A stretch of DNA of 64,000 nt, taken from the NCBI RefSeq assembly GCF_016757965.1, contig NZ_JAEKIW010000002.1:1-64000 (forward strand). Direction: 5' to 3'. The position numbers were made by a program, and so were the translations under genes. This DNA is from Archaeoglobus neptunius (GTDB lineage: Archaea > Halobacteriota > Archaeoglobi > Archaeoglobales > Archaeoglobaceae). This document shows, in pieces, positions 31,531 to 50,602 of the stretch; position 1 is the first letter of the stretch, and each line of letters starts with the position of its first letter. Below the pieces are notes generated by a model. That model saw only the letters and a list, made by a program, of their open reading frames with translations. It searched no databases and had not been told where the DNA came from.

Positions 31531-31620
31531 GGTGTAAAAATTTACAAGGGTTGATAAATAATTTGCGTTTTGGCGTACTTCCTATTCTGACCTTCGGTCC
31601 ACTTTCTCCCCATCTCTTGC

Positions 31621-31860
31621 TTATAACTCCCCCAACTCTTCCAGTATTCTTTCATACAATTCTCTATTTAACCAGAATCCCGTTTTCATAAGCTTTTCAA
31701 TCTCATCCTTTAAACACTCTACTTTACCTTCACGCTTTGCCCTGATTAAAATACCTACTGGTTTATGACCAAATACGAAGGATGGACTTAACAGTCTCAA
31801 TTTTCCTGTATATTCTCGCCTCCCACAGTGCAGTAAGCTTAGCACAGAGCAGAAGGCCAT
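31621..31860 (-). pseudogene. DUF3368 PIN-toxin C-terminal remnant fused to repeat copy L5
   Basis: The open frame has two parts. Its last 45 residues (VGILIRAKREGKVECLKDEI, then TGFWLNRELYERILEELGE) match the C-terminus of DUF3368 PIN-type toxins. The part before is read through a piece of the glycosyltransferase 3' end in another frame and is not a real protein. The catalytic PIN core is missing, so it is dead. Confidence 0.65.
31760..31832 (-). repeat. glycosyltransferase 3'-end copy L5 (short)
   Basis: About 73 bp match the 3' region of the gene at 37,441-40,488: the shared TATATTCTCGCCTCCCACA block and the stretch that codes VETVKSI in the intact gene. Both ends are truncated and the left end abuts the DUF3368 remnant. 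It is the outermost and shortest copy. Confidence 0.75.
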
Positions 31861-31873
31861 GTATTATTCTTAA

Positions 31874-32218
31874 TCAGTGATGAATATTATGGGCTTTAAT
31901 CCAATTGAATTCATTTTTGATTATCATCGTTATGTTATTCATCAGTCCTGGTATTTCTTTTGTTGCAACTATCCAAACGATCTCTATCTTCACACCGAAA
32001 TAAGAATGTATGAGCTTGTCCTTCATTCCTGATATTTTCCTCCAATCAATCCTGTATTTTTCTTTGAGATCTGCTGAAATATTCTTGACAGCTTCACCAA
32101 TAATTTCGATGTTGCGAATTACTGCATCTTGCTTCTCCTCATTTTTAAGAAGATCCTCGTAACTCAAATTTTCCACATATTTTTGAATTCTCCTACATGC
32201 TTCGAGGATGTCAAACAA
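31874..32218 (-). CDS. hepT: HepT-like HEPN toxin (DUF86), catalytic motif altered
   Basis: A 114-residue DUF86/HEPN protein, partner of the MntA-type gene 17 bp upstream. HepT toxins are ribonucleases or AMPylation targets with an R-x4-H-x-Y motif. Here the motif reads KDKLIHSYFG, so the arginine is replaced by lysine; histidine and tyrosine remain. The helices RNIEIIGEAVKNIS are intact. Activity is probably weakened, though lysine could act. Confidence 0.85.
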   Translation of the reverse strand: MFDILEACRRIQKYVENLSYEDLLKNEEKQDAVIRNIEIIGEAVKNISADLKEKYRIDWRKISGMKDKLIHSYFGVKIEIVWIVATKEIPGLMNNITMIIKNEFNWIKAHNIHH

Positions 32219-32235
32219 AAAATTCCTTGTCTCCC

Positions 32236-32541
32236 CTATGCATAGATTAAGCCTCTTTTGATGCTCTCCTTTATATATGGGATTCTGATGGTTTCTACTC
32301 CATCCCTGGTGATCAGATCCACCTTTCTGCCCAAGAGAGCTTCAAGATATTCAGTCAATTTCAGATACTTTTCAAAGGTAAGCTCGTCCATGTAAAATTC
32401 GACATAAATGTCCAAGTCGCTCCTAGCAGACTCTTCTCCCTTTGCGTAAGATCCGAAAACGCCTATTTTTTTCACACCAAAGTTCTTTCTAAGCTCATCC
32501 TTATGATCTCTCAATAACTTTAAGATTCTCTCGACATTCAT
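32236..32541 (-). CDS. mntA: MntA-like minimal nucleotidyltransferase antitoxin
   Basis: A 101-residue nucleotidyltransferase with the GSYAKGEESARSDLDIYVEF active site (GS...DxD) intact. In HEPN/MNT systems this protein AMPylates the HepT tyrosine and so silences it. The gene sits directly upstream of hepT, in the usual order. It follows repeat copy L4. Confidence 0.9.
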   Translation of the reverse strand: MNVERILKLLRDHKDELRKNFGVKKIGVFGSYAKGEESARSDLDIYVEFYMDELTFEKYLKLTEYLEALLGRKVDLITRDGVETIRIPYIKESIKRGLIYA

Positions 32542-32619
32542 ACCGTTTTCCCTCGAGTTTTAATTTTGAACCCTTACAAGGATTCTCGGTGTTAATTAGT
32601 TCTTTTGTATTTAAATCAC

Positions 32620-32815
32620 TTTCGTCTTAGAATTTCTCTGATTTTTCTTTCAATTTCTTTAGCCCATCTATCTCCCTTCTCTCTTCTCCAGTCGTAGAAT
32701 AGGTAGCCTATGCATCCGATGAAAGTGGTGGCTGAGATCATCAGGCCGATTTCAAACCAGTCCAGGTTTGTACCAGATTACGATTTCGAGATTGAATTTC
32801 GTTTATTCAAGCGGT
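32620..32815 (-). pseudogene. glycosyltransferase 3'-end copy L4
   Basis: About 170-195 bp resemble the last codons of the membrane glycosyltransferase: the CTCCAGTCGTAGAATAGGTA block (coding YLFYDWR), and the block reading LEIVIWYKP in place of LEIVIRYKP. The frame is broken within and the 5' side fades near 32,800. It lies between the DUF104-MazF and MntA-HepT modules. Confidence 0.8.
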
Positions 32816-32863
32816 TTATAACCCTGTTTTTCTTCATACATCTCTTCAATTCTATTCGATTAA

Positions 32864-33226
32864 CTAAAGATTAAATACTCTTCTAATTATATTTTTAACC
32901 TCAAAAAGTTTTTGCTGTTTTAGTCTCCCAACTTTTTTGATAATAAGATTTCTCTCAATAGTAAAAATGGAGTGGCAGTGAACATAACTTGTTTTCTTGA
33001 GTTTTCCTTCTTCTAAATCCCTAGGAGTCAACTCAACTTCAAAATCAGGCAGATGGTGGGATGAGCTTATTTTGGCAACTATAAAGTCAGATGATATGCG
33101 ATTTAAATTTTCTGAACTTAAAACGAGCACCGGTCTAAGCTTTTTGCCTATTAAATCTGTAAACGGCAGCTCAAGAATGACGATATCGCCTTCTTTATAG
33201 CTCAAAGAGCTCTTCTGCATCCTCAC
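32864..33226 (-). CDS. MazF/PemK-family toxin
   Basis: A 120-residue PemK-like endoribonuclease toxin. It has YKEGDIVILELPFTDLIGKK, the arginine-proline strand LRPVLVLSS and the serine/threonine strand KTSYVHCHSIFTIE. Length and fold match the family, so the toxin looks intact. It overlaps the DUF104 antitoxin by 32 bp, so the pair is translationally coupled. Confidence 0.88.
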   Translation of the reverse strand: MRMQKSSLSYKEGDIVILELPFTDLIGKKLRPVLVLSSENLNRISSDFIVAKISSSHHLPDFEVELTPRDLEEGKLKKTSYVHCHSIFTIERNLIIKKVGRLKQQKLFEVKNIIRRVFNL

Positions 33227-33383
33227 CCTCTCTCAGAAGCTTAAAATATCCATGCAGTTTCAGATCGTTCAATGTTTTTACCTCTTCTATACTCAAGATC
33301 ACCTTAGATCTCTCCGGAACGTCGAGTTTGATCAGCGGTATTAAAACCCCTTTCTCGTATATGCACTCAATCTTCTTGCTCAT
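33195..33383 (-). CDS. DUF104-type antitoxin
   Basis: A 62-residue protein opening KKIECIYEKGVLIPLIKLDV, the AF2212/DUF104-like antitoxin signature, with SKVILSIEEV after it. ATG 33383 is used; the frame is open further but lacks support. It is the upstream partner of MazF. DUF104 more often pairs with PIN toxins, so this pairing is slightly unusual. Confidence 0.85.
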   Translation of the reverse strand: MSKKIECIYEKGVLIPLIKLDVPERSKVILSIEEVKTLNDLKLHGYFKLLREGEDAEELFEL

Positions 33384-33419
33384 GACTATTACATAGCTTT
33401 TTTGTTTTATAAATCTTCT

Positions 33420-33672
33420 TGAGGTTCTTAACTTTCTTCTCAATTCTTTTAGCCCATCTGTCTTCTTTCTCTCTCCTCCAGTCGTAGAAGAGGTAGCCGA
33501 TGCAACCAGCGAAAGTTAATCCGGAAATCATCAACCCAATCTCAAACCAGTCCAGGTTTGTATCTTATGATGATTTCGAGGTTGCCGGTTTGGTTGATCC
33601 AGAAGCCGTTTATTACCGAACACAAGGGGATGGATCTAACCTTTTCTACTAACTTATCGTCCTTGTATGCCA
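33420..33672 (-). pseudogene. glycosyltransferase 3'-end copy L3
   Basis: About 250 bp match the final 80 codons of the glycosyltransferase, from the CTCCAGTCGTAGAAGAGGTA block to the region coding KVRSIPL. The GTTAATCCGGAAATCATCAA stretch is shared with the intact gene. A stop and indels break the frame. The 5' truncation is at about 33,672, 17 bp from the PIN toxin stop. Confidence 0.85.
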
Positions 33673-33688
33673 CAAGAACATCAAAAGG

Positions 33689-34196
33689 TTATTCCTCGAA
33701 CTTATTGAAAAGATATCTTTTGTTTCTGATTACTATTCTATCCTTTGTTTCAATTTCCTCAATAATATCTTTTAGTTCGATTCTATTTTTGATAATTCCC
33801 AAATCGACCATAGCAGAGAGAAGGTCTTCAATATTAAAGACATCGATACCGATTTCTTTGGCAACCTTCTCAACGACTTTATCGTTTGAAAGAATAATCC
33901 ATCCTCTGTTCTTTGCCAGAGCCATTGCTTCCATCTCTCCGAATCCCAGCCTTCTCTTCTTAGAAAGCTCCTTAACTATGCCAATTTCAATCTCATTTAG
34001 GGTGGCGATTTTAATTATCTCATTGTCTATTAGCTGAATAGCGTAATCTACAAAATCATATCCCTTTTCTTTTGCCCTTAAGACCTCTTCATAAACTCTT
34101 GGAGGTATAGAACTGAGCTTTAAAGAGTTTTTCGAGCAAATCGAACTTTCTGATCTTCGCAAAACAACTCAGTATGTCGGTATCGAGAACTATCAT
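33689..34196 (-). pseudogene. PIN-domain (VapC-like) toxin, frameshifted
   Basis: The true start ATG at 34196 overlaps the antitoxin stop by 4 bp and begins MIVLDTDILSCFAKIRKFDL, a PIN N-terminus. The frame then stops, and the rest continues in the +1 frame as LSSIPPRVYEEVLRAKEKGY to the C-terminus with GEMEAMALAKNRGWIILSND. One extra A near 34,110 explains this. Catalytic acidic residues remain on both pieces, so it was recently active. A sequencing error is possible. Confidence 0.8.
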
Positions 34197-34492
34197 AGCA
34201 TGCTTTTCAGCTTCTCTGTTCTCTTCCTCAACTCATCTTCATTTGAGCCAACTTCTCTCTTAATTTTCCTGCTAACGAATTCTCTGAATTCTACTACCTC
34301 CATACCGGCGATTTCCGCTGCTTTCTCAAGCGATACCTCTTCATCTTTGTACAATTCCAAGGCTACCTCTATTTTGAGTTGGGGATTTACCTCGAACAAA
34401 GCTCTTATAGCCTCTTTCAGCAACTCCTCTTCGGAATACTTCCTGAGCAATACGTTGATCTCCTTCTGGAAGGCGGATACTTTTAGACCCAT
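34193..34492 (-). CDS. UPF0175/VapB-type antitoxin
   Basis: A 99-residue protein with the UPF0175 helix pattern ALELYKDEEVSLEKAAEIAG, a helix-turn-helix, and a basic tail RKIKREVGSNEDELRKRTEK. It is the antitoxin partner of the downstream PIN toxin (ATGA overlap). It follows copy L2 by about 50 bp. Confidence 0.82.
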   Translation of the reverse strand: MGLKVSAFQKEINVLLRKYSEEELLKEAIRALFEVNPQLKIEVALELYKDEEVSLEKAAEIAGMEVVEFREFVSRKIKREVGSNEDELRKRTEKLKSML

Positions 34493-34539
34493 TAAATATA
34501 CCTCGGATGTACGATTAAATAAAGCTTGTTATTATCTTT

Positions 34540-35290
34540 GTCTTAAAGTCCTGAGCAAGTCTTTAACCTCTGTTTCTATCTTTTTAGCCCATCCATCTCC
34601 TTTCCCCCTTCTCCAGTCGTAGAAGGAGTAAATGATGCATCCGATGAAGGTTGTAGCGGAAATCATCAAACCACTCGAACCAGTCCTGGGGTTTGTAGCG
34701 GATTACTATTTCAAGGTCGCCGGTTTCGTTGATCCAGAAGCCGTTAATAACAGAATACAATGGGATGGATTTAACTTTTTCTACCAGTTTATCCCTGTAT
34801 ATTCTCGCCTCCCACAATGGATCGTAGGCTTCTGCAAATGAGAGCATGAAGGGCTTTTTCGCCTGAACTTTGACCTTCCACAAAGTGGGGTTGACTTTTG
34901 TGTAGCTGATTACCTCAGCCGGTTTTTCTTTTACCTCGAATAGCTGGTTTATTGTCTGGTTTGTTTTGGTTGAGTATAACCAGATTACATCGAGCTTTGC
35001 GTCATCGCTTAGTGGGGTAATCTCGAGCCTGTACTTTCCTTCTGTCAGATTGAAGAGGGGTGTATAGGTGTAATTCGCGGATGTGTTGAGGTTGAAGGAG
35101 TAGAATGAGGTGTTGCCAACAACAGTAACCCCAAAACTGCCAACACCTTTTAAAGCGAGCCTGTAGGTTCCATTCTTGACGATTTCGATGTCCTGCCATG
35201 CCCTTCCATTTTCGAATACAAGCATTTCGCCGTTGCTGGCGTTGATGTCTTTAACAATTCCGGCATCACAGTAGAGAGATCTTGAGATTC
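34540..35290 (-). pseudogene. glycosyltransferase 3'-end copy L2 (longest)
   Basis: About 750 bp matching the C-terminal 230 residues of the intact gene: NGRAWQDIEIVKNGTYR, LFNLTEGKYRLEITPL, KLDVIWLYSTKTNQTINQLF, WKVKVQAKKPFMLSFAEAYD and VINGFWINETGDLEIVIRY are all open in one frame. Two points differ from the intact gene: it lacks the 160-residue carbohydrate-binding-like insert, and a 2-nt deletion near 34,672 shifts the tail after YKPQDWFE. It has no start codon or membrane part. Confidence 0.9.
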
Positions 35291-35408
35291 CAAAAATACA
35301 GATATCATTATTTTTTCTTTATTGTGATTTTTATTTTCTGCAATCAGGCTAATAGACTCTTACTATTGTATTTTGTCTTATGCTCCTCAGAAAATAAATA
35401 ATCGTTTT

Positions 35409-35687
35409 TCAATAAACCTTACCTCGAAAATGTATATTATAAACAAAAACCGTTTTTCTTGTCAGGTCAATTCTGAGTATAACTCTAAAATTACCAACCC
35501 TCAATCTAACAAAGCCCTCCCACTTACCCTTTAATTTCTGTATATCGAGACGCCTGATGGGGATTACGCCATCTTGAAGGCCATCCACCAACTCATTCAG
35601 CTTGTTAAACACAGTATTTCTTCTATTTTCGTCTAAATCTCTCAGAAATTTCTTAGCATTTTTATGGTACACTATTCTCCATTCCAT
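35409..35687 (-). CDS. relE: RelE-family toxin
   Basis: A 92-residue RelE-like mRNA interferase: [20 protein letters not shown], then [20 protein letters not shown] with the basic catalytic residues, ending HFRGKVY. The fold appears complete. It overlaps the RelB-like gene upstream by 16 bp. Confidence 0.9.
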
Positions 35688-35857
35688 GGTTCAAAATCTT
35701 TTTCATCGAAGTTTTCTGGACTTCCTGCCATACGGTCTATCTCTCTCTGCTCTTCGTCAGTAACATAGGGCATAATTTCCATAAACATCTTTAACAGCAC
35801 CTCTCTGAGCTTCTCCTCAATTATTTTCTCAAGTTCATCTCTTGAGATCTGAATCAT
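35672..35857 (-). CDS. relB: RelB-like antitoxin
   Basis: A 61-residue acidic protein ([20 protein letters not shown], then [18 protein letters not shown]) directly upstream of RelE. The N-terminal helix is for dimerisation and the acidic tail for toxin binding. Start ATG 35857 is supported by position; the frame extends further without need. Confidence 0.8.
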
Positions 35858-35994
35858 GATTAATATTTTCGACTTGGGAGTTATAAACATTTGTTCGTTT
35901 TCAGGAGAAATGGATTGGCAACAAAAATTGGTGAAGGAAGAAGAGGGGGTATAAGGTCGTGGAGTGATTAATTTTTACGGTTCTTGATTAGATT

Positions 35995-36174
35995 TTTAAT
36001 AGCCCTTTCAACCTACAGGCATCCTGTCTTCTCTCCTCGATGAATTCTTTTAGGATGTCTTTTTCAGCTTTCGCCCTATAATCCTTAAGCCTCTCTACTA
36101 AATTTTCTTTGATTTCTATCCTCATTCTCTTACCATGGCTTGAATACTCCATTTTCGTAGATGACCTCTATCAC
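35995..36174 (-). pseudogene. DUF104 antitoxin remnant
   Basis: The minus strand reads VIEVIYENGVFKPW then stop, and shortly after, MRIEIKENLVERLKDYRAK and ILKEFIEERRQ. The first part is nearly the same as the start of the antitoxin at 48,007-48,195 (VIEVIYENGVFKPLEKVDL). A deletion removed the middle. No toxin is left beside it. It is attached to copy L1, the same order as the DUF104 gene and joint F at 48 kb. Confidence 0.7.
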
Positions 36175-36650
36175 TGTTTTGAACCTTTAAAGCCCATCCA
36201 TCCCCTTTTTCCCTCCTCCAGTCGTAGAATAGGTAGGTAATGCAGCCGATGAAAGTGGTGGCTGAGATTAATAAGCCAATCTCAAACCAGTGAGGTTTGT
36301 ATCTTATAACGATTTCGAGGTTGCCGGTTTCGTTGATCCAGAATCCGTTAATAACCGAATACAATTGGATGGATTTTACCTTCTCAACCAGCTTACCATC
36401 CTTGTATATTCTCGCCTCCCACAATGGATCGTAGGCTTCTGCAAATGAGAGCATGAAGGGCTTTTTCGCCTGAACTTTGACCTTCCACAAAGTGGGGTTG
36501 ACTTTTGTGTAGCTGATTACCTCAGCCGGTTTTTCTTTGACTTCGAAAAGCTTTGGAATAGTCTCGTTCGAAAAGTAGGGCCGAACAACATCCAGTGTAG
36601 CATTATCATTCAGAGGTGTTTAAATCTGCATGTCTTTCCTTCGAGGTAGG
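36175..36650 (-). pseudogene. glycosyltransferase 3'-end copy L1
   Basis: About 475 bp match the intact gene's C-terminal 140 residues (WKVKVQAKKPFMLSFAEAYD, VINGFWINETGNLEIVIRY, FIGCITYLFYDWRRE). The final 79 bp (36,175-36,253) are identical to 48,249-48,327. A stop breaks the 5' side near 36,620. It lies between TumE and the DUF104 remnant. Confidence 0.9.
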
Positions 36651-36710
36651 AAATCGATGTGTATCGAAGTTTAAGGACTGTGATGTGAGATGTGAGTTTA
36701 AAATTTTTCT

Positions 36711-37079
36711 TTACAAAATGCTCTCAATCTCTTTAAACACATCCAAAAGGCTCTTGCTTTTTGAGGGCAAAACTTTTTCACCAATATGAACATGATGTGG
36801 AAACGTAGCGACCTCTCTGTGGTGTGGTGCGTTATCGTATCTAAAAATGGGAGTTTCAGATTTCCTATAATGGAATCGGTACCTTATTCTCTCCAAACCT
36901 TTACTGGCATCCTTTATGAGTTCCAAAAATTCGAGTGTCGAACCGTCTTTAAAAAGAACTGCCCCATAAAGCAGAACCAGTGTGGAAGATTTAACATCAA
37001 CATTTAATTCGTAAGAAAGTATGACCGGACTAGTTTTCAGTGTATTTATTACTTGGTCTAAATAATCATCTATCTGCAC
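36711..37079 (-). CDS. tumE: TumE-family (DUF6516) toxin
   Basis: A 122-residue protein of the DUF6516/TumE toxin family. The signature FRYDNAPHHREVATFPHHVH near residues 78-97 is intact and is the likely nuclease site. It overlaps the upstream antitoxin by 10 bp. The family call rests on this motif and gene order. Confidence 0.78.
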   Translation of the reverse strand: MQIDDYLDQVINTLKTSPVILSYELNVDVKSSTLVLLYGAVLFKDGSTLEFLELIKDASKGLERIRYRFHYRKSETPIFRYDNAPHHREVATFPHHVHIGEKVLPSKSKSLLDVFKEIESIL

Positions 37080-37345
37080 AGTTTCAACATCCTGATGATG
37101 GCATCTCTATCCTTTTTCAGCAATTCTAAAGCCTCAAATTCGGATGCCCAGAGCATAAATTCCTGTGAGTCCCCAATTTCACCTTTTTCAAACTTTTTGT
37201 GAAATTCTTCACTGCTGATACCATGTTTCTTCTCAAAATCCTTGAGTTTCTCCGTTGTCTTTTGGATACTGTACTCTATAAGTTTCAGCTCCCTTTCCAG
37301 CGAATTTCTCAGAATCTGAAATTCTCTCTCGGTTTTTGCTATCAT
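37070..37345 (-). CDS. tumA: TumA-like antitoxin
   Basis: A 91-residue mostly helical protein (TEREFQILRNSLERELKLIE, then KLKDFEKKHGISSEEFHKKF), just upstream of and overlapping tumE. A coiled-coil pattern is visible. ATG 37345 was chosen; an upstream in-frame start at 37387 is possible. It begins 96 bp after the end of the intact glycosyltransferase gene. Confidence 0.7.
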   Translation of the reverse strand: MIAKTEREFQILRNSLERELKLIEYSIQKTTEKLKDFEKKHGISSEEFHKKFEKGEIGDSQEFMLWASEFEALELLKKDRDAIIRMLKLCR

Positions 37346-37440
37346 CCAATAGTATCTTATCAGAAATATTGAAATACTTTTCGACATAGTGTAAAATGAA
37401 TTTATATTCTAAAATCAAAAACTCTGCCATGATTAACTCA

Positions 37441-40488: not shown

Positions 40489-40489
40489 T

Positions 40490-41914: not shown

Positions 41915-41918
41915 ATTA

Positions 41919-42650
41919 TTAATCCCCCGCTTCATCCTTTATGACAATTAGATAATGCATAGGTTTTAAGAAATATTTTAATCCTCTTTTTAGTGCTAAT
42001 ACTCTTGTTCTGATTCCTATGTCTATAAGATTCTCAATCCGCACATTATAACCTTTATCCATATATTCTCTAAGTATATTTCTCCACCACTCTTTTTTTG
42101 ATATTCGCCTCTCACCTAAAACCCCTTCACTTGGATAATATTCTGATGGCACATTAATAATAACAACATGTGCAACGCTTAATTGTTCATTAATTAGCTT
42201 TTGAATCTCTTCATTTGAAAAATGCTCAAGTAGTCCTTGTGAAATTGCAATGTCAAACTCCTTTTCTTTGAAAATATCACTCAAATGAAATGCGTCACCA
42301 AAAATAAACTTTATATTCTTTCTTTTATATCTTTGGGAATTTTTTTTTGCTACATCAAGAACTTTTTCGTTGCTATCTAAACAATAAAATTCTGTTTTTC
42401 GTAAAAAGACGCTTAAAAATATCGAATGCGAAGCTGTACCACAGCCTACTTCAAGTACTTTTTTGGGTCTAAGTTTCATTACTTCTAATAAGTAATGCAA
42501 ATGTAAAATATTATCTGCCAAGAAGTTGAAGGAGGAGGGGGGTTTAGAGTAAACATCCTCCCATCCATAAATTAGCTTACTGAGCTTTTTTTTCAGTGAT
42601 TTTCTACAGGCATTTTCATCACTTTTTTCAAAATACTCACTACCGAACAT
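41919..42650 (-). CDS. class I SAM methyltransferase
   Basis: A 243-residue SAM methyltransferase. The SAM site is VLEVGCGTASHSIFLSV, with the acidic FYCLDSNEKVLDVAK and motif ISQGLLEHFSNEEI. It likely methylates a sugar or lipid of the local glycan. ATG 42650 has GAGGTG seven bases upstream and overlaps the GT4 gene by 11 bp. AT-rich like its neighbours. Confidence 0.85.
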   Translation of the reverse strand: MFGSEYFEKSDENACRKSLKKKLSKLIYGWEDVYSKPPSSFNFLADNILHLHYLLEVMKLRPKKVLEVGCGTASHSIFLSVFLRKTEFYCLDSNEKVLDVAKKNSQRYKRKNIKFIFGDAFHLSDIFKEKEFDIAISQGLLEHFSNEEIQKLINEQLSVAHVVIINVPSEYYPSEGVLGERRISKKEWWRNILREYMDKGYNVRIENLIDIGIRTRVLALKRGLKYFLKPMHYLIVIKDEAGD

Positions 42651-43920
42651 TCTTAAGCACCTCAATAAATGCCTGCGTAGAATTCTCGATAGAATACTTA
42701 AGTTTGTGTTTATCTATAGCTATACATGGTGGCTTTATTTCACTTTCTAATAACTTTTCTAAGATTTCTAAGAAGTTACGACTATTATAAGCGACAAAAC
42801 CAAATCGACTTTGTTTTACAATTTCAGCTGCCCCAACTACGTTGAAAACTAGAACAGGTGTTCCACATGCTATAGATTCGGCTATTACATATCCAAATTG
42901 TTCCCATTTTTGAGGACATATCGCCAATTTACATTCAGAATATATTTTAGCTAGCTCTTTATCAGAAACTCCAGAAATATGGTGTATTTCATATCTCTTC
43001 GAAAGTTTTTTTGCAAGCATTTTATTTCCTATTGCTAAAATTTTAAAATTCTTATCTTCCAAAACTTTACAAATTTCCTTTACAAAATTTTCATCAGTAT
43101 CACCAGCGTGGGAGCCAAGATAAAGCAAAACTTGATCTTTTTTCTTTACATTCTGAGGTTTAAAAATTTCGGTATTCACAGGTGGATACACTATTCCATG
43201 TGGCTCAACTCCATAGAGTGTATGCAAAAGTGTTGCTGTTATTTGGCTATTAGCAATTAATATATCTTGCTTTTGAAGTAACTTTTTATAAGATGCTTTT
43301 AGCAAGTTAAACGGAACGACTCTTACAATCTTGAATAATATTCGTTCTTTTGTTGGCAGATACTTTAAGTCAAACACATCAACGATAGAGTGGACTCCAA
43401 ATAGTATCTGAACATAAACTCCAGTCTTTATTTGAATTTTGCTTTTAATTTTTTTAAGAAGTCTTAACCTCCGGAAATTATCATCTGTTAAAATAATATT
43501 TGGTTTTACTATATTTATATAATCCACAATCTCTTTGAATTTCTTCGAGTTCTTGTATTTAATTCCATCTATACTTTCAATAAATTCTGTCAATTTTTTT
43601 TCACAATTTAGTAGAAGGAAATGCACTTCCCAGCCGTTTTTAGAAAATTCTTTAGCCCAATTAATAAATGGTCTTACAACTCCCTCATACGGATGTCTTT
43701 CTCGGTCCAAAAGGAGTGCAATCTTTGATGGTCTCCCTCTCGCAGACTCTACCTCAGTCCCTGCATAAAACCCCCTCTCAAAATCCCTAACCCTAACCCA
43801 GAACCCCTCACCAACCGATCTCTCCGGAATTACGACTCCTCCCACTTTCTCATCCTCCATAACCTCAACACACTCCCCCACCACATCTGGCATCAGCTCC
43901 ATGTCCGAATCCACGAACAT
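42640..43920 (-). CDS. GT4 glycosyltransferase fused to the middle of a GT2 gene
   Basis: A 426-residue open frame of two origins. The first 62 residues (MFVDSDMELMPDVVGECVEV to ESARG) are the middle of a GT2 enzyme with its DxD region, GC-rich. From RPSKIALLLDRERHPYEGVV on it is a GT-B family 4 glycosyltransferase with the signature WEQFGYVIAESIACGTPVLV, AT-rich. The GT2 N-terminus lies upstream in another frame (43,930-44,155). The native GT4 start was probably near 43,735. A single-base shift separates the two pieces. Confidence 0.8.
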   Translation of the reverse strand: MFVDSDMELMPDVVGECVEVMEDEKVGGVVIPERSVGEGFWVRVRDFERGFYAGTEVESARGRPSKIALLLDRERHPYEGVVRPFINWAKEFSKNGWEVHFLLLNCEKKLTEFIESIDGIKYKNSKKFKEIVDYINIVKPNIILTDDNFRRLRLLKKIKSKIQIKTGVYVQILFGVHSIVDVFDLKYLPTKERILFKIVRVVPFNLLKASYKKLLQKQDILIANSQITATLLHTLYGVEPHGIVYPPVNTEIFKPQNVKKKDQVLLYLGSHAGDTDENFVKEICKVLEDKNFKILAIGNKMLAKKLSKRYEIHHISGVSDKELAKIYSECKLAICPQKWEQFGYVIAESIACGTPVLVFNVVGAAEIVKQSRFGFVAYNSRNFLEILEKLLESEIKPPCIAIDKHKLKYSIENSTQAFIEVLKNVR

Positions 43921-43929
43921 GACATACCT

Positions 43930-44155
43930 CCCCTCTCGCCCTTCTCAACCCGAAGTTCTTGGCTTTTGCTCTTTCGCAGTCCAGCTTATAAACCCTGGCT
44001 TTATATTCCTTTGCGATTTCAGCCGTTTTATCCTCGGAAAATCTGTCCACTACTATTATTTCAATATTTCTATAACTCTGATTTTCTATCGATTCCAGAC
44101 AAATATCAACAGTATTTTCAGAGTTGTAGGTCGGAATGACAACTGAAACCTTCAT
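43930..44155 (-). pseudogene. GT2 5'-end copy A, frameshifted into the GT4 fusion
   Basis: The first 75 codons of a GT2 gene: SVVIPTYNSENTVDICLESI, NQSYRNIEIIVVDRFSEDKT, then KLDCERAKAKNFGLRRARG. One extra C in the run at 43930-43933 shifts the frame; without it the protein would run on into YVMFVDSDMEL and the GT4 part as one 505-residue chimera. The ATG overlaps the HEPN stop by 4 bp (ATGA). Confidence 0.85.
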
Positions 44156-44529
44156 AAACTGTCCAAGTAACTCTTTAACCTTTCAAAAAATTTGTGAGCA
44201 TCTCTTAAGGTTCTCTCGGCTTCATCTCTCGTAATCTGAAATCCTACACCGTAATCACCGATTATCCTTTTATCGTGAGCTTCGCTAAGCATCTTACCGA
44301 ATTCCCTCTCGATGATTCCGGTCTTTATAAAGTGTTCTCCGAACATGGCTATCACACCCTTGTGAGTTGAAGCTGTTAAACCTTTGGTGAGAAGAACAGC
44401 TTCAGCCATGAAAAACATTGCGTAATAACATCGGGACACGCACGAATCGCAGTCCCCTAATTCTAAGGCGTATTCAGCCGTATTAAGAAACTTCTCAGCC
44501 TTCTTTACGAGATCGTCAATTTCTCTCAA
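44152..44529 (-). CDS. HEPN-domain toxin
   Basis: A 125-residue HEPN protein: CVSRCYYAMFFMAEAVLLTK and a conserved KGVIAMFGEHFIKTG. It partners the nucleotidyltransferase gene upstream, overlapping by 4 bp. The HEPN helices are complete. Its stop overlaps the GT2 copy A start. Confidence 0.87.
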   Translation of the reverse strand: MREIDDLVKKAEKFLNTAEYALELGDCDSCVSRCYYAMFFMAEAVLLTKGLTASTHKGVIAMFGEHFIKTGIIEREFGKMLSEAHDKRIIGDYGVGFQITRDEAERTLRDAHKFFERLKSYLDSL

Positions 44530-44870
44530 ATCTTTATACCCTCCCTTTTAACGTTTATGATAAAAGGAGACTTATAATTTTCAAAGAAATCTTCTCCAAC
44601 TACCACAACGGAAACGAGTTCACCATCGTTCAGCAGTATATCAAGTATCATCTCGCTTAGACTTTTCCTGACTTCCATGGGATCCATTGAATTATCAACA
44701 ACTACAAGCACATCGATGTCCGAATCTTCTCGGGCTTCACCCCTCGCATGAGAACCGTAGAATATCACATCCTTTATACAACTCTCACCATATCTATTTA
44801 TTAAATATTTTTTTATTTCATAAACAATATTCCTTATTTTTTTATTGGTGTTCATTCTCATAGCCTCCAA
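44526..44870 (-). CDS. MNT-type nucleotidyltransferase antitoxin
   Basis: A 114-residue minimal nucleotidyltransferase with FYGSHARGEAREDSDIDVLV (GS...DxD) intact. It is the upstream partner of the HEPN gene. It follows GT2 copy B by about 35 bp. Confidence 0.9.
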   Translation of the reverse strand: MEAMRMNTNKKIRNIVYEIKKYLINRYGESCIKDVIFYGSHARGEAREDSDIDVLVVVDNSMDPMEVRKSLSEMILDILLNDGELVSVVVVGEDFFENYKSPFIINVKREGIKI

Positions 44871-44905
44871 CTCCTCTCCTTTAGCTTTCAGCGAACTCCT
44901 AATTT

Positions 44906-45127
44906 TTAAGCATTTTCACACTTTTGGTCTTTAGCCCTTTCGCAGTCCAGCTTATAAACCTTAGCTCCATATCTTTCTGCGATTTCAGCAGTCATATCGC
45001 TGGAAAATCTATCAACAACAATTACCTCAATTTCCTCATAGCTCTGCCTAACTACGGATTTCAAACACAGCTCAAGAGTTCTTCCGGAATTACAGGTAGG
45101 AATTACGACAGATACCAGCTGATTCAT
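44906..45127 (-). pseudogene. GT2 5'-end copy B
   Basis: A 73-codon open piece: SVVIPTCNSGRTLELCLKSV, VIVVDRFSSDMTAEIAERYG, KLDCERAKDQ, then stop. It matches copy A, including the 24-bp block at 44,937-44,960 shared with 43,971-43,994. The start codon is retained; the catalytic part of the enzyme is missing. Confidence 0.88.
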
Positions 45128-45184
45128 AATGACACCATCGGAGCTATCCTGTCTTCCTCAAAATGAACTCTCTAACCTTCTCTG

Positions 45185-45520
45185 CTATTCCATCGCTTCT
45201 TTCGCTTCATCTTCCGTTATTTCTCGACCTATAGGATATCTGATCGTAACACCGAGTGGAAATAAAATGGAAAAATCGAGCTTAAGCAGATCCTCGAATC
45301 TTTGATCGATCTCCGCGCATAAACTTAAGAGTAAAGGAATGTTATGAGTTTTTCCAAACGGTTTGTTGTGATAAGTCAGGAATGCTTTGAGGTATTTTTC
45401 AACCGCTTGTTGGGAGTGAAATAATGAGTAATCGTAGATTCCTTCTCTAATTAATATGCTTGCAACTTTTAGATCAGTCTCAGCCTTTTTCAACCACTCC
45501 CTTGCTTTTTCGACAATCAT
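45185..45520 (-). CDS. HEPN-domain toxin, 3' frameshift
   Basis: A 111-residue HEPN protein: LKKAETDLKVASILIREGIY, YSLFHSQQAVEKYLKAFLTY. One lost base near 45,188 ends it early; in the other frame the expected tail IAEKVREFILRKTG follows and stops at about 45,145. The loss removes only the last helix, so function is uncertain. Confidence 0.82.
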   Translation of the reverse strand: MIVEKAREWLKKAETDLKVASILIREGIYDYSLFHSQQAVEKYLKAFLTYHNKPFGKTHNIPLLLSLCAEIDQRFEDLLKLDFSILFPLGVTIRYPIGREITEDEAKEAME

Positions 45521-45834
45521 ATAACCACACCCTCTGATGTTGCCACACCGCAGATGTCGCCGAAAACATCCTTATGTTTAATGTAGTAACTCTTACTGAC
45601 CACGATTGGTTCCGCATCTATTTTAAAGTCCAGTAACTTCAAAACACATTCGTACAGGAACATCCTCTCAGTATTTCTATCAATCTCAGCCTCGGTGACA
45701 ATCAAAATGTCCCAATCCGAATCCTCTCGGTAATCTCCTCTGGCTCTCGAACCGAACAGGATTATCCTGTCTACCTTTATTCCGAACTTTTCAGCCACTT
45801 CCAGAATTGTTTCTCTTATCTTCTCCTTCATCAA
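45517..45834 (-). CDS. MNT-type nucleotidyltransferase antitoxin
   Basis: A 105-residue nucleotidyltransferase with ILFGSRARGDYREDSDWDIL intact. It overlaps the HEPN gene by 4 bp, the usual HEPN-MNT pair. It follows GT2 copy C. Confidence 0.9.
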   Translation of the reverse strand: MMKEKIRETILEVAEKFGIKVDRIILFGSRARGDYREDSDWDILIVTEAEIDRNTERMFLYECVLKLLDFKIDAEPIVVSKSYYIKHKDVFGDICGVATSEGVVI

Positions 45835-45859
45835 ATTATAGTCCCCTCAAAACGTATTT

Positions 45860-46078
45860 ACCTTTTCGCCCTTCTCAAGCCCATTCTTGGCTCTCTCACA
45901 ATCGGAGCTGACATGCCTTGGCTCCAAAACCCTCAGCGATTTCAACAGTTCAATCTTCAGAAAACCTGTCAACGATTATAACCTCGATGTCATCGTAGCT
46001 CTGATTTGCTATCGACTTCAGACAGATATTAATCATCCCTTCGGAATTGTAAGTTGGAATGACAACTGAAACCACCAT
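45860..46078 (-). pseudogene. GT2 5'-end copy C
   Basis: The minus strand reads VVSVVIPTYNSEGMINICLK, SIANQSYDDIEVIIVDRFSE, then a stop, VEIAEGFGAKACQLR in the next piece, and fragments of ESQEWA and GRKGKY. It begins 20 bp after the HicA stop and is more degraded than A and B. Confidence 0.85.
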
Positions 46079-46098
46079 AATCAAATTTCAGTAACGAC

Positions 46099-46320
46099 CT
46101 ACATTTTATGCTTCTTTTTAAACTCATTGTATCTTCTTACAAACTCCTCCAAACTCATCTGAAGATCCTCTTTGATGATCTTTCTAAGGAGACCTCTTGG
46201 AATTTCTCTGTTTCCGTGTACCGGAACAGTAGTAACCCTCCCATCCTCCGACTTTAGCCCTACATGAGAACCTTTCATCCTTACGGGTTTAAATCCAAGT
46301 TCTTCAAGAAATTTAAGCAA
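46099..46320 (-). CDS. hicA: HicA-like toxin, likely start lost
   Basis: A 73-residue HicA-type double-stranded-RNA-binding-fold toxin: ELGFKPVRMKGSHVGL with the catalytic histidine and TVPVHGNREIPRGLLRKIIK. The frame continues upstream as KLPLIKARDLLKFL without a start codon. An ATG one base out of frame (46,347-46,350 area) suggests a single A insertion cut it off. TTG 46320 may still start it. Confidence 0.78.
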   Translation of the reverse strand: MLKFLEELGFKPVRMKGSHVGLKSEDGRVTTVPVHGNREIPRGLLRKIIKEDLQMSLEEFVRRYNEFKKKHKM

Positions 46321-46334
46321 ATCTCTCGCCTTTA

Positions 46335-46583
46335 TTAGTGGTAGTTTTCATATTCTACCTCGACCTCTCTGTAACCCACGAACTTCTGGCTATCATCTAT
46401 ATCCTCTTCCTCCAAACACAGCTCTACTACTTCTTTTATATTCTCCAAAGCCTCTTCTATCGTTTTTCCATAAGTGTGGCAACCTCTTAGGAGGGGACAG
46501 CTGACTATATAGTATCCGTCCTCATCAATTTCAACAATCACAGGGAATCTGAGCTTTCTAACCGTTACATTCATGTATTTCAC
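46335..46583 (-). CDS. hicB: HicB-like antitoxin
   Basis: An 82-residue HicB partial RNase-H-fold antitoxin: FPVIVEIDEDGYYIVSCPLL, RGCHTYGKTIEEALENIKEV. It lies upstream of hicA. The last few codons (EYENYH) may result from the same one-base insertion. It follows copy D. Confidence 0.87.
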   Translation of the reverse strand: MKYMNVTVRKLRFPVIVEIDEDGYYIVSCPLLRGCHTYGKTIEEALENIKEVVELCLEEEDIDDSQKFVGYREVEVEYENYH

Positions 46584-46719
46584 TTACAATTTTCCGTTTA
46601 AATGTCTCTACAATCGATGGCTGAATCTCCACCAGAATATTCTAAAAATTCGTAAAAACTTTAAAGTTCTCCATAACCACTCGCGATCAATTCGACGCAC
46701 TTCCCTGCAATTTTTCGAA

Positions 46720-46824
46720 AATGTATCCAAATTGGCCTTTGCCCTCTCACATTCCGCTGATAAACCTTGGCTTTGTACTCTTCTGCAAGTTTTACAGTTC
46801 CATCTTCAGAAAACCTGAAATGCA
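46720..46824 (-). pseudogene. GT2 5'-end copy D (internal piece)
   Basis: Only RFSEDGTVKLAEEYKAKVYQ remains, matching RFSEDKTAEIAKEYKARVYK of copy A. The true start is lost; it begins directly at the PIN toxin stop. The block TAAACCTTGGCTTTGTACTC resembles copies A and B. Confidence 0.78.
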
Positions 46825-46827
46825 TCT

Positions 46828-47331
46828 TCAATCCTCATATCCCAGAAGTCTTAGGAATTCCGAGTAAACTTCAACGCTAAGCCTGAATCCATTTCTGATC
46901 ATCATGTCAACCTTGTCTATTGCATTTCTCCTGTCGAGTTTACCTTTTTTCATCATCAGAAATATCAGATAGAGGGTTCCGTGAACATTTACATCTAAGA
47001 TTTCACCGATCTCCCTTGCTATACTGTCATCAATTACCGCAATTCCACCCTTTTTCCTTGCCAGAGACAGAGCTTCGATCTCACCCGTATGTATCTCTTT
47101 AACTCCCTTCAGCCAGTCGATGGGTTCAGCTTCGATTATCCTGAAAGCCCCCTTTTTCACGAGCTTTTCAACTATAAACGCATCGACCTCTCCCCTCTCT
47201 TTCCCTTTAACAACGACTTCAGAATACACTGTCTTCGGAATAACTTTTTCTCCTTCGAGTTCCTCAAAAATCCAGCTCAAACTTACCTTACTGAGATAGA
47301 TAAGCGGTGTGGAGTTGAAAACCCATATCAC
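46828..47331 (-). CDS. DUF3368 PIN-domain toxin
   Basis: A 167-residue PIN-type toxin: VFNSTPLIYLSKVSLSWIFE with the first acidic/asparagine site, IPKTVYSEVVVKGKERGEVD, HTGEIEALSLARKKGGIAVI and DDSIAREI. The acidic residues for metal binding are present; it appears complete. It overlaps its antitoxin by 4 bp. Confidence 0.88.
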   Translation of the reverse strand: MIWVFNSTPLIYLSKVSLSWIFEELEGEKVIPKTVYSEVVVKGKERGEVDAFIVEKLVKKGAFRIIEAEPIDWLKGVKEIHTGEIEALSLARKKGGIAVIDDSIAREIGEILDVNVHGTLYLIFLMMKKGKLDRRNAIDKVDMMIRNGFRLSVEVYSEFLRLLGYED

Positions 47332-47627
47332 TTCATTGCCTCCTCAAAATCCCTCCTCAAATCATTGATGGTTATGTTGAGCGATAATCCCCTCTCCCTA
47401 ATCAGCTCAAGCATATCCCTTATGGATATTTCCGCAATTTCAGCAGCCTTTGCAAGCGAAACCTTCCTTTCTGAGTAAAGGTTCACCGCAATCTTTTTGA
47501 GTTCTTCATCGACCCCTCTCTCCAAAGCCCTCCTGACTACGGACGATTTGTCAGCTTTTTCAAACTCCATGAGCTTCCTGATCTTTTTTTCCAGATCCGG
47601 TTTTGGTCTAACTGAAATTACACCCAT
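47328..47627 (-). CDS. UPF0175-type antitoxin
   Basis: A 99-residue antitoxin with a ribbon-helix-helix-like N-terminus (FEKADKSSVVRRALERGVDE) and the UPF0175 helix NLYSERKVSLAKAAEIAEIS. It resembles the antitoxin at 34,193-34,492 (VSLEKAAEIAGMEV). It pairs with the PIN toxin downstream. It follows copy E. Confidence 0.87.
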   Translation of the reverse strand: MGVISVRPKPDLEKKIRKLMEFEKADKSSVVRRALERGVDEELKKIAVNLYSERKVSLAKAAEIAEISIRDMLELIRERGLSLNITINDLRRDFEEAMK

Positions 47628-47699
47628 GTTTACAAATTCAATTCTTGTTTACTTAAGATTTTCTACTACCATTCTTCTGCTTTCGTCGTCATTATCAGT

Positions 47700-47815
47700 T
47701 GGTTCAAACGCACCCCTTATTTACCCCACACCAAATCCACAAACAGAATATTTAGCATACCTTTCAGCAACATCAATATTATTTTTCGAGAATCTTTCAC
47801 CATCTATACCATATT
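47700..47815 (-). pseudogene. GT2 5'-end copy E (most degraded)
   Basis: The minus strand reads IDGERFSKNNIDVAERYAKY, resembling VVDRFSEDKTAEIAKEYKAK. Start and end are lost. It lies where the pattern predicts: just after the toxin remnant at 47,868. Weak similarity; the position adds support. Confidence 0.6.
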
Positions 47816-47867
47816 ATTATTTTAATAAAAATAAAATAGTAAAGTGGCAATTCATTCAGATTCTATA

Positions 47868-48019
47868 ACTTCCAAGAAGTCAACCCTCTTGAAATCCTCA
47901 TCAAAAGTGGCTATCTTCTTTATTCCGTAATGCTTGCAGGTTGCAGCAATTAAAGCATCGTTCGGCAGAAGCTTGTATTTTTCTATTATGTAAGAACGCG
48001 TTAGAATCAAAGAATACCT
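47868..48019 (-). pseudogene. VapC-type PIN toxin with internal deletion
   Basis: The frame begins by GTG overlapping the antitoxin (VEVFFDSNAFLH) and resumes after a shift as KLLPNDALIAATCKHYGIKK, IATFDEDFKRVDFLEVIES. Start and end of a VapC are present but the middle is gone, so the toxin is dead while the antitoxin is intact. Confidence 0.75.
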
Positions 48020-48195
48020 CCACTCTCTATCTCCTCCAATATCGAGTCTATATCACAGCCTTTTATCACACCTCTAGTCTTTTCGCTGACTTTTTCCCTT
48101 ATCTCTATTCTTAACTTCTCCCCTTCATTTAAATCAACCTTTTCAAGTGGCTTGAATACTCCGTTTTCGTAAATAACCTCTATAACCTTTGGCAT
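48007..48195 (-). CDS. DUF104-type antitoxin
   Basis: A 62-residue DUF104 antitoxin: KVIEVIYENGVFKPLEKVDL, NEGEKLRIEIREKVSEKTRG, ending DIDSILEEIESGGIL. It overlaps the VapC remnant. The start is nearly the same as the remnant at 36.1 kb. Confidence 0.87.
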   Translation of the reverse strand: MPKVIEVIYENGVFKPLEKVDLNEGEKLRIEIREKVSEKTRGVIKGCDIDSILEEIESGGIL

Positions 48196-48241
48196 ATTTT
48201 ATGATTAATTTGAAATTTAAAATAGTTTCCGCCTGAACTTC

Positions 48242-48553
48242 TTAATTCTGTTTTGAACCTTTAAAGCCCATCCATCCCCTTTTTCCCTCCTCCAGTCGTA
48301 GAATAGGTAGGTAATGCAGCCGATGAAGGTTGTTGCAGAAATCATCAAACCACTCGAACCAGTCCTGTGGTGTATATCTGATTACGATTTCAACCGTATT
48401 ATCTTTTGAGAAGCTGTCCACTACCATTATTTCAATATTTCTATAACTTTGATTTTTTATCGATTTTGGGCATAGATCGATAGTTTTTTCTGAATTGTAG
48501 GTTGGAATGATAACAGAAACCAAAGAATCTCCAGAATTCTTGCCCAATGACAA
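48242..48553 (-). pseudogene. joint F: GT2 5' end joined to glycosyltransferase 3' end
   Basis: A 103-codon open frame in two parts. The first 55 residues are a GT2 start (SLVSVIIPTYNSEKTIDLCP, NQSYRNIEIMVVDSFSKDNT). At about 48,395 it changes to the C-terminus of the membrane glycosyltransferase (IVIRYTPQDWFEWFDDF). The glycosyltransferase part has the same 2-nt deletion as copy L2 and 79 bp identical to copy L1. Nothing of the genes that lie between them at the main locus remains. Confidence 0.88.
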
Positions 48554-48591
48554 TTTTTATCACCTTCTAGCCATTGGTATAACTGCCGGTG

Positions 48592-48984
48592 TCATGTCGT
48601 TAAAATTTCCGCTATTATTTTCTCTTCTATAGGTTTGAAGTCAAGGTATTCCATTAAAGTCTTCTCTATAAATCTTAACCTGACTTCTTCGTTCTTACTG
48701 ATCAGAAGTTCGCCCTTAACAGCCCTGTACTTAAAGCTCAGCGGTGCAGAATTCAAAACTTTAACATCAACCGGCAATCTTACGGTTTTCTCAATCTCCG
48801 CAGAGAGCTTTAACTCATAATCCAAAAAATCCTCTACCTTACTCTCGTCAACGTAAACTGCAATATCAACATCCCTGATGTAAATCTCGTTAAAGCTGCC
48901 GTGAAGGTATGCAAAGATAACCTCATCCCCTTCAGCCAGAATCTCCTTAATCTTTTTCTTTGTCTCCTCTTTGTTTACCGGCAT
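48592..48984 (-). CDS. mntA: MNT-type nucleotidyltransferase antitoxin
   Basis: A 130-residue nucleotidyltransferase: FAYLHGSFNEIYIRDVDIAV, the GSx9DxD site. It is MntA-like and overlaps the HepT gene upstream by 38 bp. Here the HepT gene comes first, the reverse of the 32 kb pair. Confidence 0.88.
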   Translation of the reverse strand: MPVNKEETKKKIKEILAEGDEVIFAYLHGSFNEIYIRDVDIAVYVDESKVEDFLDYELKLSAEIEKTVRLPVDVKVLNSAPLSFKYRAVKGELLISKNEEVRLRFIEKTLMEYLDFKPIEEKIIAEILTT

Positions 48985-49396
48985 AATCCATTACCTCCTT
49001 AATAAACTCCTCCAGATCTGAAACGTCTTTTTTCATTATTTCGTAAATTTTTTCGTCGTCTATTTTCCAGTAGATACGTACGAGCATGTTCCTGAATTTT
49101 GCCATAGCAGCAAGTTTTTCAGCCAAGTCTTGTGAAATTATTCCGTGTTTGCCGAGAATTATGAAACAATCTGAGTAGCTACTCGGAATTTCCTTAACAA
49201 TCCTCACAACGATGTGGTTGCAGACTGAAATAGCCGCTTCAATCGCTACAATCAACTTATACTTTGCCGCATCCCTGACGTATGGGTCAGATAAAAACTT
49301 TCCCAGGCCCAATTCGACGATATCTCCGAGTTCGCCAAGAAGCTGTTTAATCTCAGCGAGTCTTCTGTTTACAAGATCAACATCAATTCCGGGCAT
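48947..49396 (-). CDS. hepT: HepT-like HEPN toxin with catalytic histidine lost
   Basis: A 149-residue DUF86/HepT protein: YKLIVAIEAAISVCNHIVVR and AAMAKFRNMLVRIYWKIDDE. The family motif R-N-x3-H-x-Y reads RNMLVRIY, so the catalytic histidine is arginine. The toxin is probably inactive. First gene of the right array. Confidence 0.86.
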   Translation of the reverse strand: MPGIDVDLVNRRLAEIKQLLGELGDIVELGLGKFLSDPYVRDAAKYKLIVAIEAAISVCNHIVVRIVKEIPSSYSDCFIILGKHGIISQDLAEKLAAMAKFRNMLVRIYWKIDDEKIYEIMKKDVSDLEEFIKEVMDYAGKQRGDKEKD

Positions 49397-49496
49397 GCTA
49401 TCATTTCCTTATAACTTCACATTATTAAAATATTCCATCAATGGACTGATGAGCAACTCAGTATAACCATATTCAAATTTCAGCCAAACATGGTTT

Positions 49497-50579: not shown

Positions 50580-50602
50580 AAATAACACCATCAAGAAATA
50601 CG

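Follow-up and report, generated by a model that had tools for sequence, protein, structure and literature searches.

The window, by which we mean the whole stretch of 64,000 nucleotides of Archaeoglobus neptunius DNA analysed here, holds a glycan locus whose core and flanking genes are as follows.

30193..31530, minus strand: ManC-type GDP-mannose pyrophosphorylase, left flank
37441..40488, minus strand: core GT-C membrane glycosyltransferase with CBM_4_9 (PF02018)
40490..41935, minus strand: core type I phosphodiesterase/sulfatase-like gene (PF01663)
41919..42665, minus strand: core methyltransferase (PF13847)
42640..43920, minus strand: core GT4 (PF00534)
49497..50594, minus strand: GT4 glycosyltransferase, outer right flank (Pfam Glycos_transf_1; 75.6% nucleotide identity to G025; base loci L071, L072, L077, L079)

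The original prediction held that a replaceable core lies between two gene ends that stay fixed, and comparison with G025, a complete single-contig genome of a genus other than the window's, agrees with it. The outer GT4 gene and both gene ends recur in G025, as does an MNT-HEPN block at 93% identity, but the core between the ends is unrelated. The two cores have their first 384 bp (82% identity) and last ~1.1 kb (85%) in common and nothing between, and the core GT-C is chimeric relative to G025, with a conserved C-terminal part of 417 aa and a replaceable N-terminal part of 590 aa. As expected of a variable glycan island, unrelated DNA thus lies between common flanks, here in different genera and not in conspecific strains. 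Other archaea possess an array-free base locus of the form GT4-GT2-core-GT-C, again with differing cores between the same ends, in which GT2 begins within ~20 bp after GT4. These comparisons indicate that the core is replaceable and lies between two conserved sequences, the 5' end of GT2 and the 3' end of GT-C.

On both sides of the core, copies of the GT-C 3' end or the GT2 5' end are interleaved with toxin-antitoxin (TA) modules. The copies were located by self-blastn and a repeat search (pairwise nucleotide identity ~66-90%, E-values down to 1e-154), and the alternation anticipated for both sides was borne out by these searches and by Pfam. The left array comprises the following features.

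31618..31760, minus strand: PIN (DUF3368) 3' remnant beyond L5, at the outer left end of the variable region (PF11848; 95% nucleotide identity to G025)
31761..31860, minus strand: L5, short GT-C fragment (self-blastn)
31874..32541, minus strand: MntA-HepT (PF01909, PF01934)
32601..32823, minus strand: L4, GT-C 3' end (self-blastn)
32864..33443, minus strand: DUF104 (AF2212)-MazF/PemK (PF01954, PF02452)
33411..33668, minus strand: L3, GT-C 3' end (self-blastn)
33689..34492, minus strand: UPF0175-PIN-like module (PF03683; toxin named by position)
34541..35282, minus strand: L2, GT-C 3' end derived from a GT-C without the CBM domain (self-blastn)
35409..36152, minus strand: DUF104 remnant (35988-36152) and RelBE (35409-35890; PF05016, ParE/RelE)
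~36151..36634, minus strand: L1, GT-C 3' end (self-blastn)
36711..37387, minus strand: TumA-TumE (PF20126, TumE)

The right array comprises the following features.

43774..44155, minus strand: copy A, innermost GT2 5' piece (82% nucleotide identity to A of G025)
44152..44870, minus strand: MNT2-HEPN2, its stop overlapping the ATG of A (PF01909, PF05168)
44906..45127, minus strand: copy B, GT2 5' end (self-blastn)
45185..45834, minus strand: MNT1-HEPN1 cassette (PF01909, PF05168)
45852..46080, minus strand: copy C, GT2 5' end, its 3' tip common to G025 (self-blastn)
46099..46583, minus strand: HicB-HicA (PF15919, PF07927)
~46732..46831, minus strand: copy D, internal GT2 fragment without the 5' end (self-blastn)
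46828..47627, minus strand: UPF0175 antitoxin-PIN (DUF3368) toxin (PF03683, PF11848)
47628..47851, minus strand: copy E, doubtful GT2 remnant
47852..48195, minus strand: DUF104 (AF2212) antitoxin with degenerate PIN toxin (PF01954, PF01850)
48239..48553, minus strand: joint F, GT2 5' end (48382-48553) fused to GT-C 3' end (48239-48393) (blastn)
48592..48984, minus strand: MntA antitoxin (PF18765, 6e-18)
48947..49396, minus strand: HepT toxin (PF01934, 4e-32)

Most of the copies and modules listed in the original prediction stand, with two reservations: copy E is marginal (17 of 400 shuffles reach an equal score, against 0 of 200 for copy D), and the PIN of the right-hand DUF104 module is degenerate, only a C-terminal piece of 52 aa being left. 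The expectation that the 5' copies mostly keep their 5' end holds for A, B and C and fails for D, which has lost it. Copy A is not an intact GT2; it is a GT2 5' piece of ~139 codons, frameshifted and fused to the first core gene. Joint F matches A at 82% and the GT-C copies at 81-86% (blastn), and its fusion point is a tract of 8-10 bp, TTGAAATCG-like and common to both ends (microhomology); it is a true fusion and represents an earlier core that collapsed. The right-hand DUF104 module is matched in G025 by a GT-C end plus DUF104, at 81.7% nucleotide identity.

Two other origins of the pattern were rejected. An assembly artefact is ruled out by G025, where the same structure lies in a complete single-contig genome. 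Independent paralogy is likewise ruled out, since the copies are recognizable as such in their DNA (~66-90% identity) and those of GT-C are confined to this locus within their own genome. The displaced copies are decayed, with truncations, stops and shared frameshifts. Those of GT-C could in principle form a silent archive of the kind seen in antigenic variation, donating sequence by gene conversion to the C-terminus of GT-C, and the intact gene does have numerous partial copies of its end beside it. Most of them, however, carry stops, frameshifts or internal deletions, and the C-terminus is the conserved, not the variable, part of intact GT-Cs, which makes this reading extremely improbable.

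In all 11 TA modules of the window, Pfam recognises one partner or both; the names given to TumA, RelB and the PIN of the left array (33689-34162), which returned no Pfam match, are based on position. Nine of the 11 pairs are open and look intact. Dead TA genes are also present (the PIN at 47852 and, at 31618, the PIN remnant). An early stop takes 14 aa from the HEPN at 45185-45520 when it is compared with its 93%-identical relative in G025. The DUF104 remnant at 35988-36152 is related to a DUF104-PIN cassette of G020 and G008 (85-86% nucleotide identity over 122 nt). Between genera, dN/dS is 0.02-0.27 for the TA genes (~0.17 for MNT1-HEPN1, within a block that is 93% identical in G025), which places them under purifying selection and shows them to be maintained as functional genes. 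The HEPN and HepT families place 4 of their 14 genome-wide matches in this 0.85% of the genome (binomial ~5e-6 if independent).

The original prediction called for a search for the same combination of TA modules and gene ends elsewhere, and similar arrays do turn up in 7 genomes of Archaeoglobaceae, which span 5 genera, and in a few other archaea, several of the compared arrays coming from short metagenome contigs; right-hand arrays were found in two genomes only. The comparison of arrays is one between genera. Within the genus, G002 contributes the ManC side only, with homology ending at 31571, and a match to the GT-C end is absent from the same-genus genomes G001-G007. No relative of the arrays was found in viral_contigs. 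The TumAE cassette is 84-93% identical across four genomes, in each of which its left neighbour differs from those in the other three, as does its right neighbour, and further cassette families are common to several genera in differing order. In some of the other genomes, TA modules are oriented opposite to GT-C; together with the dead genes, this leaves some intervals without a working TA that runs in the direction of GT-C. In one genome pair the TA is 95-100% identical and both flanking copies are 73-85% identical. Given synonymous divergences (0.36-0.44 for TumAE), we dropped such a step in identity as sole proof of recombination: part of the drop from TA to copy could be due to more rapid neutral decay of the copies, except in the near-identical pair and where neighbours are reordered.

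The junctions between TA modules and copies were read by eye, as copy starts set by automated alignment are blurred by internal deletions. The passage from TumE into GT-C always enters at the EKPAEV region, and that from the DUF104-PIN group always at the KPFMLSFAEAYDP region, in both cases across genera. Copy tails co-vary with the downstream TA (68.7% versus 55.6% identity, permutation p=0.0008), whereas the copy interior has no such association (p=0.29); the tail of L4, CGAAAGTGATTTAAA, is found ahead of other TAs in other genera. The copies contain a CGAAA...TTTAAA element that may serve the downstream TA as promoter. A copy is a patchwork, its start belonging to the upstream TA and its tail to the downstream TA, and the junctions are old and TA-family-specific across genera. 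We consequently rejected as too narrow a unit made of a truncated GT-C end and its downstream TA, since the junctions are also specific to the upstream TA.

These observations bear directly on the mechanism first proposed, in which each replacement of the core leaves one TA module and a newly displaced end. In its most explicit form, an incoming core brings one TA per side, inserts inside the old core and leaves a truncated old end plus a TA on each side. The numbers of TA/copy units are indeed equal on the two sides of the window (6/6) and of G025 (3/3, counting a VapB remnant), and joint F would then be a whole collapsed earlier locus within the right array. Such insertion could also account for the block MNT1-HEPN1-B, which is common to the window and G025, yet in which B ends at a different point in each, ahead of a different inner TA. 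Against it, G010 has 4 units on the left and 1 on the right, so that the gain of a single TA on each side at every event is not a general rule. The left TA-copy junctions are TA-specific and conserved across genera, not made anew at each event, and the neighbours of the cassettes are shuffled. An identical 2-nt frameshift, seen in L2, is present in displaced copies of other genera, and the copies must therefore have spread already displaced. Successive insertion of this kind is thus unlikely, and the claim of one fresh displaced end per core swap is not supported in that form: with TA-specific junctions and differing neighbours, the units are better described as recombining TA cassettes than as fresh scars of core replacement.

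A further possibility is that TA and Abi genes simply accumulate at both edges of a hypervariable surface locus. Either insertions at these edges do no harm, or TAs directed against viruses move together with genes that alter receptors; in both cases the gene-end copies would be passengers with no role. The intervals examined carry TA, AbiE or archaeal ATPase genes, and a cargo that sets AbiE, MNT-HEPN and ATPases beside classical TAs is what a defence hotspot would contain; strong purifying selection on the TAs fits as well, as does the presence of TumAE near ManC, without gene-end copies, in one genome of the same genus. A random hotspot, however, would not be expected to have one pair of gene ends supply the copies that bound its intervals, nor to have copy tails and junctions tied to specific TAs, and we regard this account as rather doubtful. 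Site-specific integration is very unlikely. Elements that target the 3' end of GT-C and the 5' end of GT2, re-form the gene and line up in tandem, like those at tRNA genes, would explain why GT-C stays intact and has its end repeated after each module. No recombinase was found in the arrays, the core or the tested flanks, however, and tyrosine recombinase (PF00589) matches are absent from the window's contig, those of the genome lying on contigs C1 and C11 only. The repeats measure 100-700 bp with variable truncation, the cargo consists of TA-type genes only, and the repeat search returned no inverted repeats of at least 30 bp.

The reading we favour is that the gene-end copies in the arrays bordering the glycan locus probably act as platforms, supplying the homology by which TA cassettes are exchanged, and probably entire cores too. 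By a cassette we mean a TA module together with a piece of the GT2 or GT-C gene end on either flank. Since no cassette lacks these pieces, any pair of gene-end copies could recombine and so insert, exchange or delete cassettes; the shuffled neighbours and TA-specific junctions are indirect evidence of this exchange. The same recombination could swap cores that lack mutual homology, the outcome seen in G025. A single crossover with a circle of TA and gene end would yield the order gene end, TA, truncated gene end, and a double crossover with donor array DNA would yield the same product. Old cores and units would collapse when the sequence between copies is deleted, in some cases at short homologies such as the one in joint F. 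Intervals with a working TA would resist such deletion, since loss of the antitoxin would kill or arrest the cell; TA modules would therefore survive between direct repeats and the locus would be anchored. It is plausible that TA addiction guards the arrays from collapse, and the earlier suggestion that TA modules may lock a new cassette in would fit TAs that are intact and under selection amid copies that have decayed. We put forward more tentatively, as a possibility rather than an expectation, that this is an archaeal cassette system driven by homologous recombination, in which the end genes of a glycan locus act as platforms and the TAs as ratchets, intervals without a TA being lost and those bearing one persisting. 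Cores could then be swapped between genera, the borders only gaining addiction modules.

Literature searches found no published description of such arrays. Chromosomal (super)integrons contain tandem small cassettes, many of them TA, with repeats between them and an order shuffled between strains. The arrays described here resemble them in their small TA cassettes, intervening repeats and shuffled order, and differ in that no integron integrase was found and the repeats are ends of protein genes with promoter-like tails, where integrons have attC sites. In the arrays of orphan toxin/immunity modules at Rhs and CDI loci (for example PMC3967940, PMC4927057), displaced gene ends likewise alternate with small toxin-related modules, these recombine with the main gene through common homology, as shuffling, junctions and tails suggest here, and stable maintenance through toxicity is reported for CDI. 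The displaced ends there are themselves toxins, those of a secreted or surface protein, whereas here they are broken GT2 and GT-C ends, and the toxins belong to intracellular TA pairs that are unrelated to these ends and flank a multi-gene core on both sides. The surface-glycoprotein islands of Haloquadratum walsbyi, as excerpted from PMC3119063, likewise differ from strain to strain in the DNA that occupies a given position, with S-layer and glycosylation genes among this unrelated DNA, and show deletion-coupled insertions and deletions at short direct repeats; unlike the present locus, they are described in that excerpt without TA arrays or gene-end copies. At the pneumococcal tvr locus (PMC6265443), gene parts are also swapped at direct repeats via circles and TA homologues are present, but hsdS shuffling is driven by a recombinase that those homologues regulate.

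The locus offers a concrete view, at the level of sequence, of how surface-glycan loci of archaea may be exchanged across genera without homology between cores while material accumulates at their borders, and it may explain how genes for the surface coat are exchanged in heat-loving archaea and then held in place. It also renders the abundance of chromosomal TA modules open to experiment, by asking whether TAs shield intervals between direct repeats from deletion. Several archaeal lineages show the pattern, and annotation of their genomes would be distorted by the many spurious glycosyltransferase fragments in each array.

Contig 2 of an essentially complete 2.1-Mb Archaeoglobaceae genome contains the window, whose glycan locus is arranged as follows.

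50594-49497, minus strand: GT4, followed by the right array
44155-37441, minus strand: core, between the right and left arrays
30193-31530, minus strand: ManC, beyond the left array

Self-comparison of the window recovered the GT-C 3′-end and GT2 5′-end copies where the original prediction had placed them (~66-90% nucleotide identity), and a search of the organism's own genome confined GT-C copies to this locus. The copies alternate with toxin-antitoxin (TA) modules; copy D is real although it lacks its start, and copy E is marginal, 17 of 400 shuffles matching it in score. F is a fusion of the GT2 5′ end to the GT-C 3′ end, with 8-10 bases common to both at the joint, showing that one core collapsed here at short homology. 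Pfam assigned a known TA family to at least one partner of each window module. Nine of 11 TA pairs seem intact (the right-hand DUF104-PIN has degenerated, and HEPN1 is shorter by 14 residues), and these 18 kb hold 4 of the 14 HEPN and HepT matches in the whole genome.

That the two ends enclose a replaceable core was borne out by G025, a complete genome from a different genus. Nucleotide identity between the two loci is 75.6% for the GT4 flank, 93% for the MNT1-HEPN1 block together with the GT2 fragments that flank it, 82% for GT2 piece A and 85% for the C-terminal part of GT-C, whereas no DNA similarity above chance was detected between their cores: the same ends carry different cores. GT2 fragment B is also present in both, with different end points, preceding MNT2-HEPN2 in the window and VapBC in G025. 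Because the C-terminal 417 aa of GT-C are 78% identical between the window (37441-40488) and the G025 locus L043 (8920-12636) while the N-terminal parts are unrelated, GT-C is a natural chimera between genera, with a conserved C-terminal part under a replaceable N-terminal part. CBM_4_9 occurs in both GT-C proteins and is absent from displaced copy L2. HEPN2 (window 44152-44155) and VapC (L043 4780-4783) are different toxins that end in an identical ATGA overlap with the GT2 start, which suggests that TA and core may be translationally coupled.

Scanning the GT-C C-terminus over 84,980 species yielded 34 loci, many without TA modules and ordered as GT4, GT2 (no more than ~20 bp away), variable core and GT-C. 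This array-free order was seen in Thermococcus, Hydrothermarchaeum, Thermoprotei and others, part of the set being metagenome bins whose organism names call for caution. In the window, the right array therefore separates GT4 from GT2, and the left array comes after GT-C. Clustered GT-C-end copies with intervening TA modules occur in seven genomes of five genera (the window, G008, G010, G011, G017, G020 and G025), and G014 and G036 hold single remnants only. Outside the family, at least two copies with intervening VapBC, AbiE and UPF-like/PIN modules were found in a Thermococcales bin (L073), and at least two with TA modules on contigs L096 and L102; in L074 and L086, MNT-HEPN or AbiE follows GT-C. 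Array cargo comprises TA, AbiE, DUF433 or archaeal ATPase genes; it is not only classical TA, since ATPase genes (DUF234/DUF4143-type) also adjoin GT-C-end copies (L104, L046/L051).

TA cassettes, each a module with a gene-end piece on either side, have been reordered between gene-end copies. With intervals clustered by DNA, the same TA has different neighbours in different genera: TumAE has four different preceding and four different following modules in G025, G010, G011 and G020, and neighbours change similarly for the DUF104-PIN, UPF0175-PIN, DUF104-PIN148 and MNT-HEPN cassettes. The junctions are conserved across genera. GT-C is entered at a constant point after TumE (EKPAEV...) and at another constant place, KPFMLSFAEAYDP..., after the main DUF104-PIN group, and displaced copies of different genera share an identical 2-nt frameshift. 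The 75 nt upstream of a TA include the stop codon of GT-C and a CGAAA-TTTAAA element resembling an archaeal promoter, and this tail follows the downstream TA (68.7 vs 55.6% identity, p = 0.0008), whereas the copy interior is not associated with it (p = 0.29). Since the entry point is specific to the upstream TA and the tail goes with the downstream TA, each copy is a patchwork, its start belonging to one cassette and its tail to the next. The contrast between interior and tail is no proof by itself, because copies decay faster than TAs; stronger evidence comes from the reordered neighbours and from the closest pair of intervals, in which the TA is 95-100% identical and both flanking copies just 73-85%. 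In DUF104-PIN cassettes of L045, L046, L048, L050 and L054, the antitoxin start and PIN 3′ end are conserved and the middles divergent; these cassette ends are perhaps a second, smaller exchange platform.

The original prediction held that every core replacement leaves one TA and one displaced end. This explains part of the pattern, accounting for joint F and for equal left and right unit counts in two genomes, but it leaves unexplained why junctions are conserved, why neighbours are shuffled and why G010 has a 4:1 count. Patchwork copies are the outcome of recombination within copies, such as when a circle carrying a TA and a gene end is inserted by a single crossover. Homologous recombination would then be the route of exchange, with circles or donor arrays as substrates, and TA addiction may be the reason that only TA-bearing intervals persist. 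No recombinase turned up in the locus; all tyrosine-recombinase matches in this genome lie on contigs other than the window's. TA genes common to different genera have dN/dS values of 0.02-0.27, in contrast to the displaced copies, which bear truncations, stops or frameshifts; selected TAs thus stand among decayed copies.

In G002, of the same genus, TumAE carries a promoter of its own, lacks GT-C ends and sits ~2 kb from ManC, at the corresponding flank, which suggests that TAs enter the locus from a general pool and afterwards move as cassettes. The ManC flank there (L123, G002:C12:28000-31159) is 76% identical as far as window position 31571; after that come a different multi-pass membrane protein (582 aa) and, at the contig end, the TumAE module. 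This is probably the orthologous variable locus with other content.

Among known systems, the locus works like Rhs/CDI orphan module arrays and is similar in form to integron arrays, but lacks defining features of each among those tested. Its core exchange is reminiscent of the deletion-coupled insertions described in Haloquadratum (PMC3119063). In the open-access journal literature, we found no published description of TA cassettes between displaced glycosyltransferase ends.

The lone GT-C remnant with VapBC in G014 (L049, 10145-12899) adjoins a putative IS607-like pair, named by eye from sequence, in which a resolvase-like protein precedes a TnpB-like one, and a provirus-like gene block lies ~4-19 kb past the glycan locus of G010 (L069, C20 ~195000-210000).
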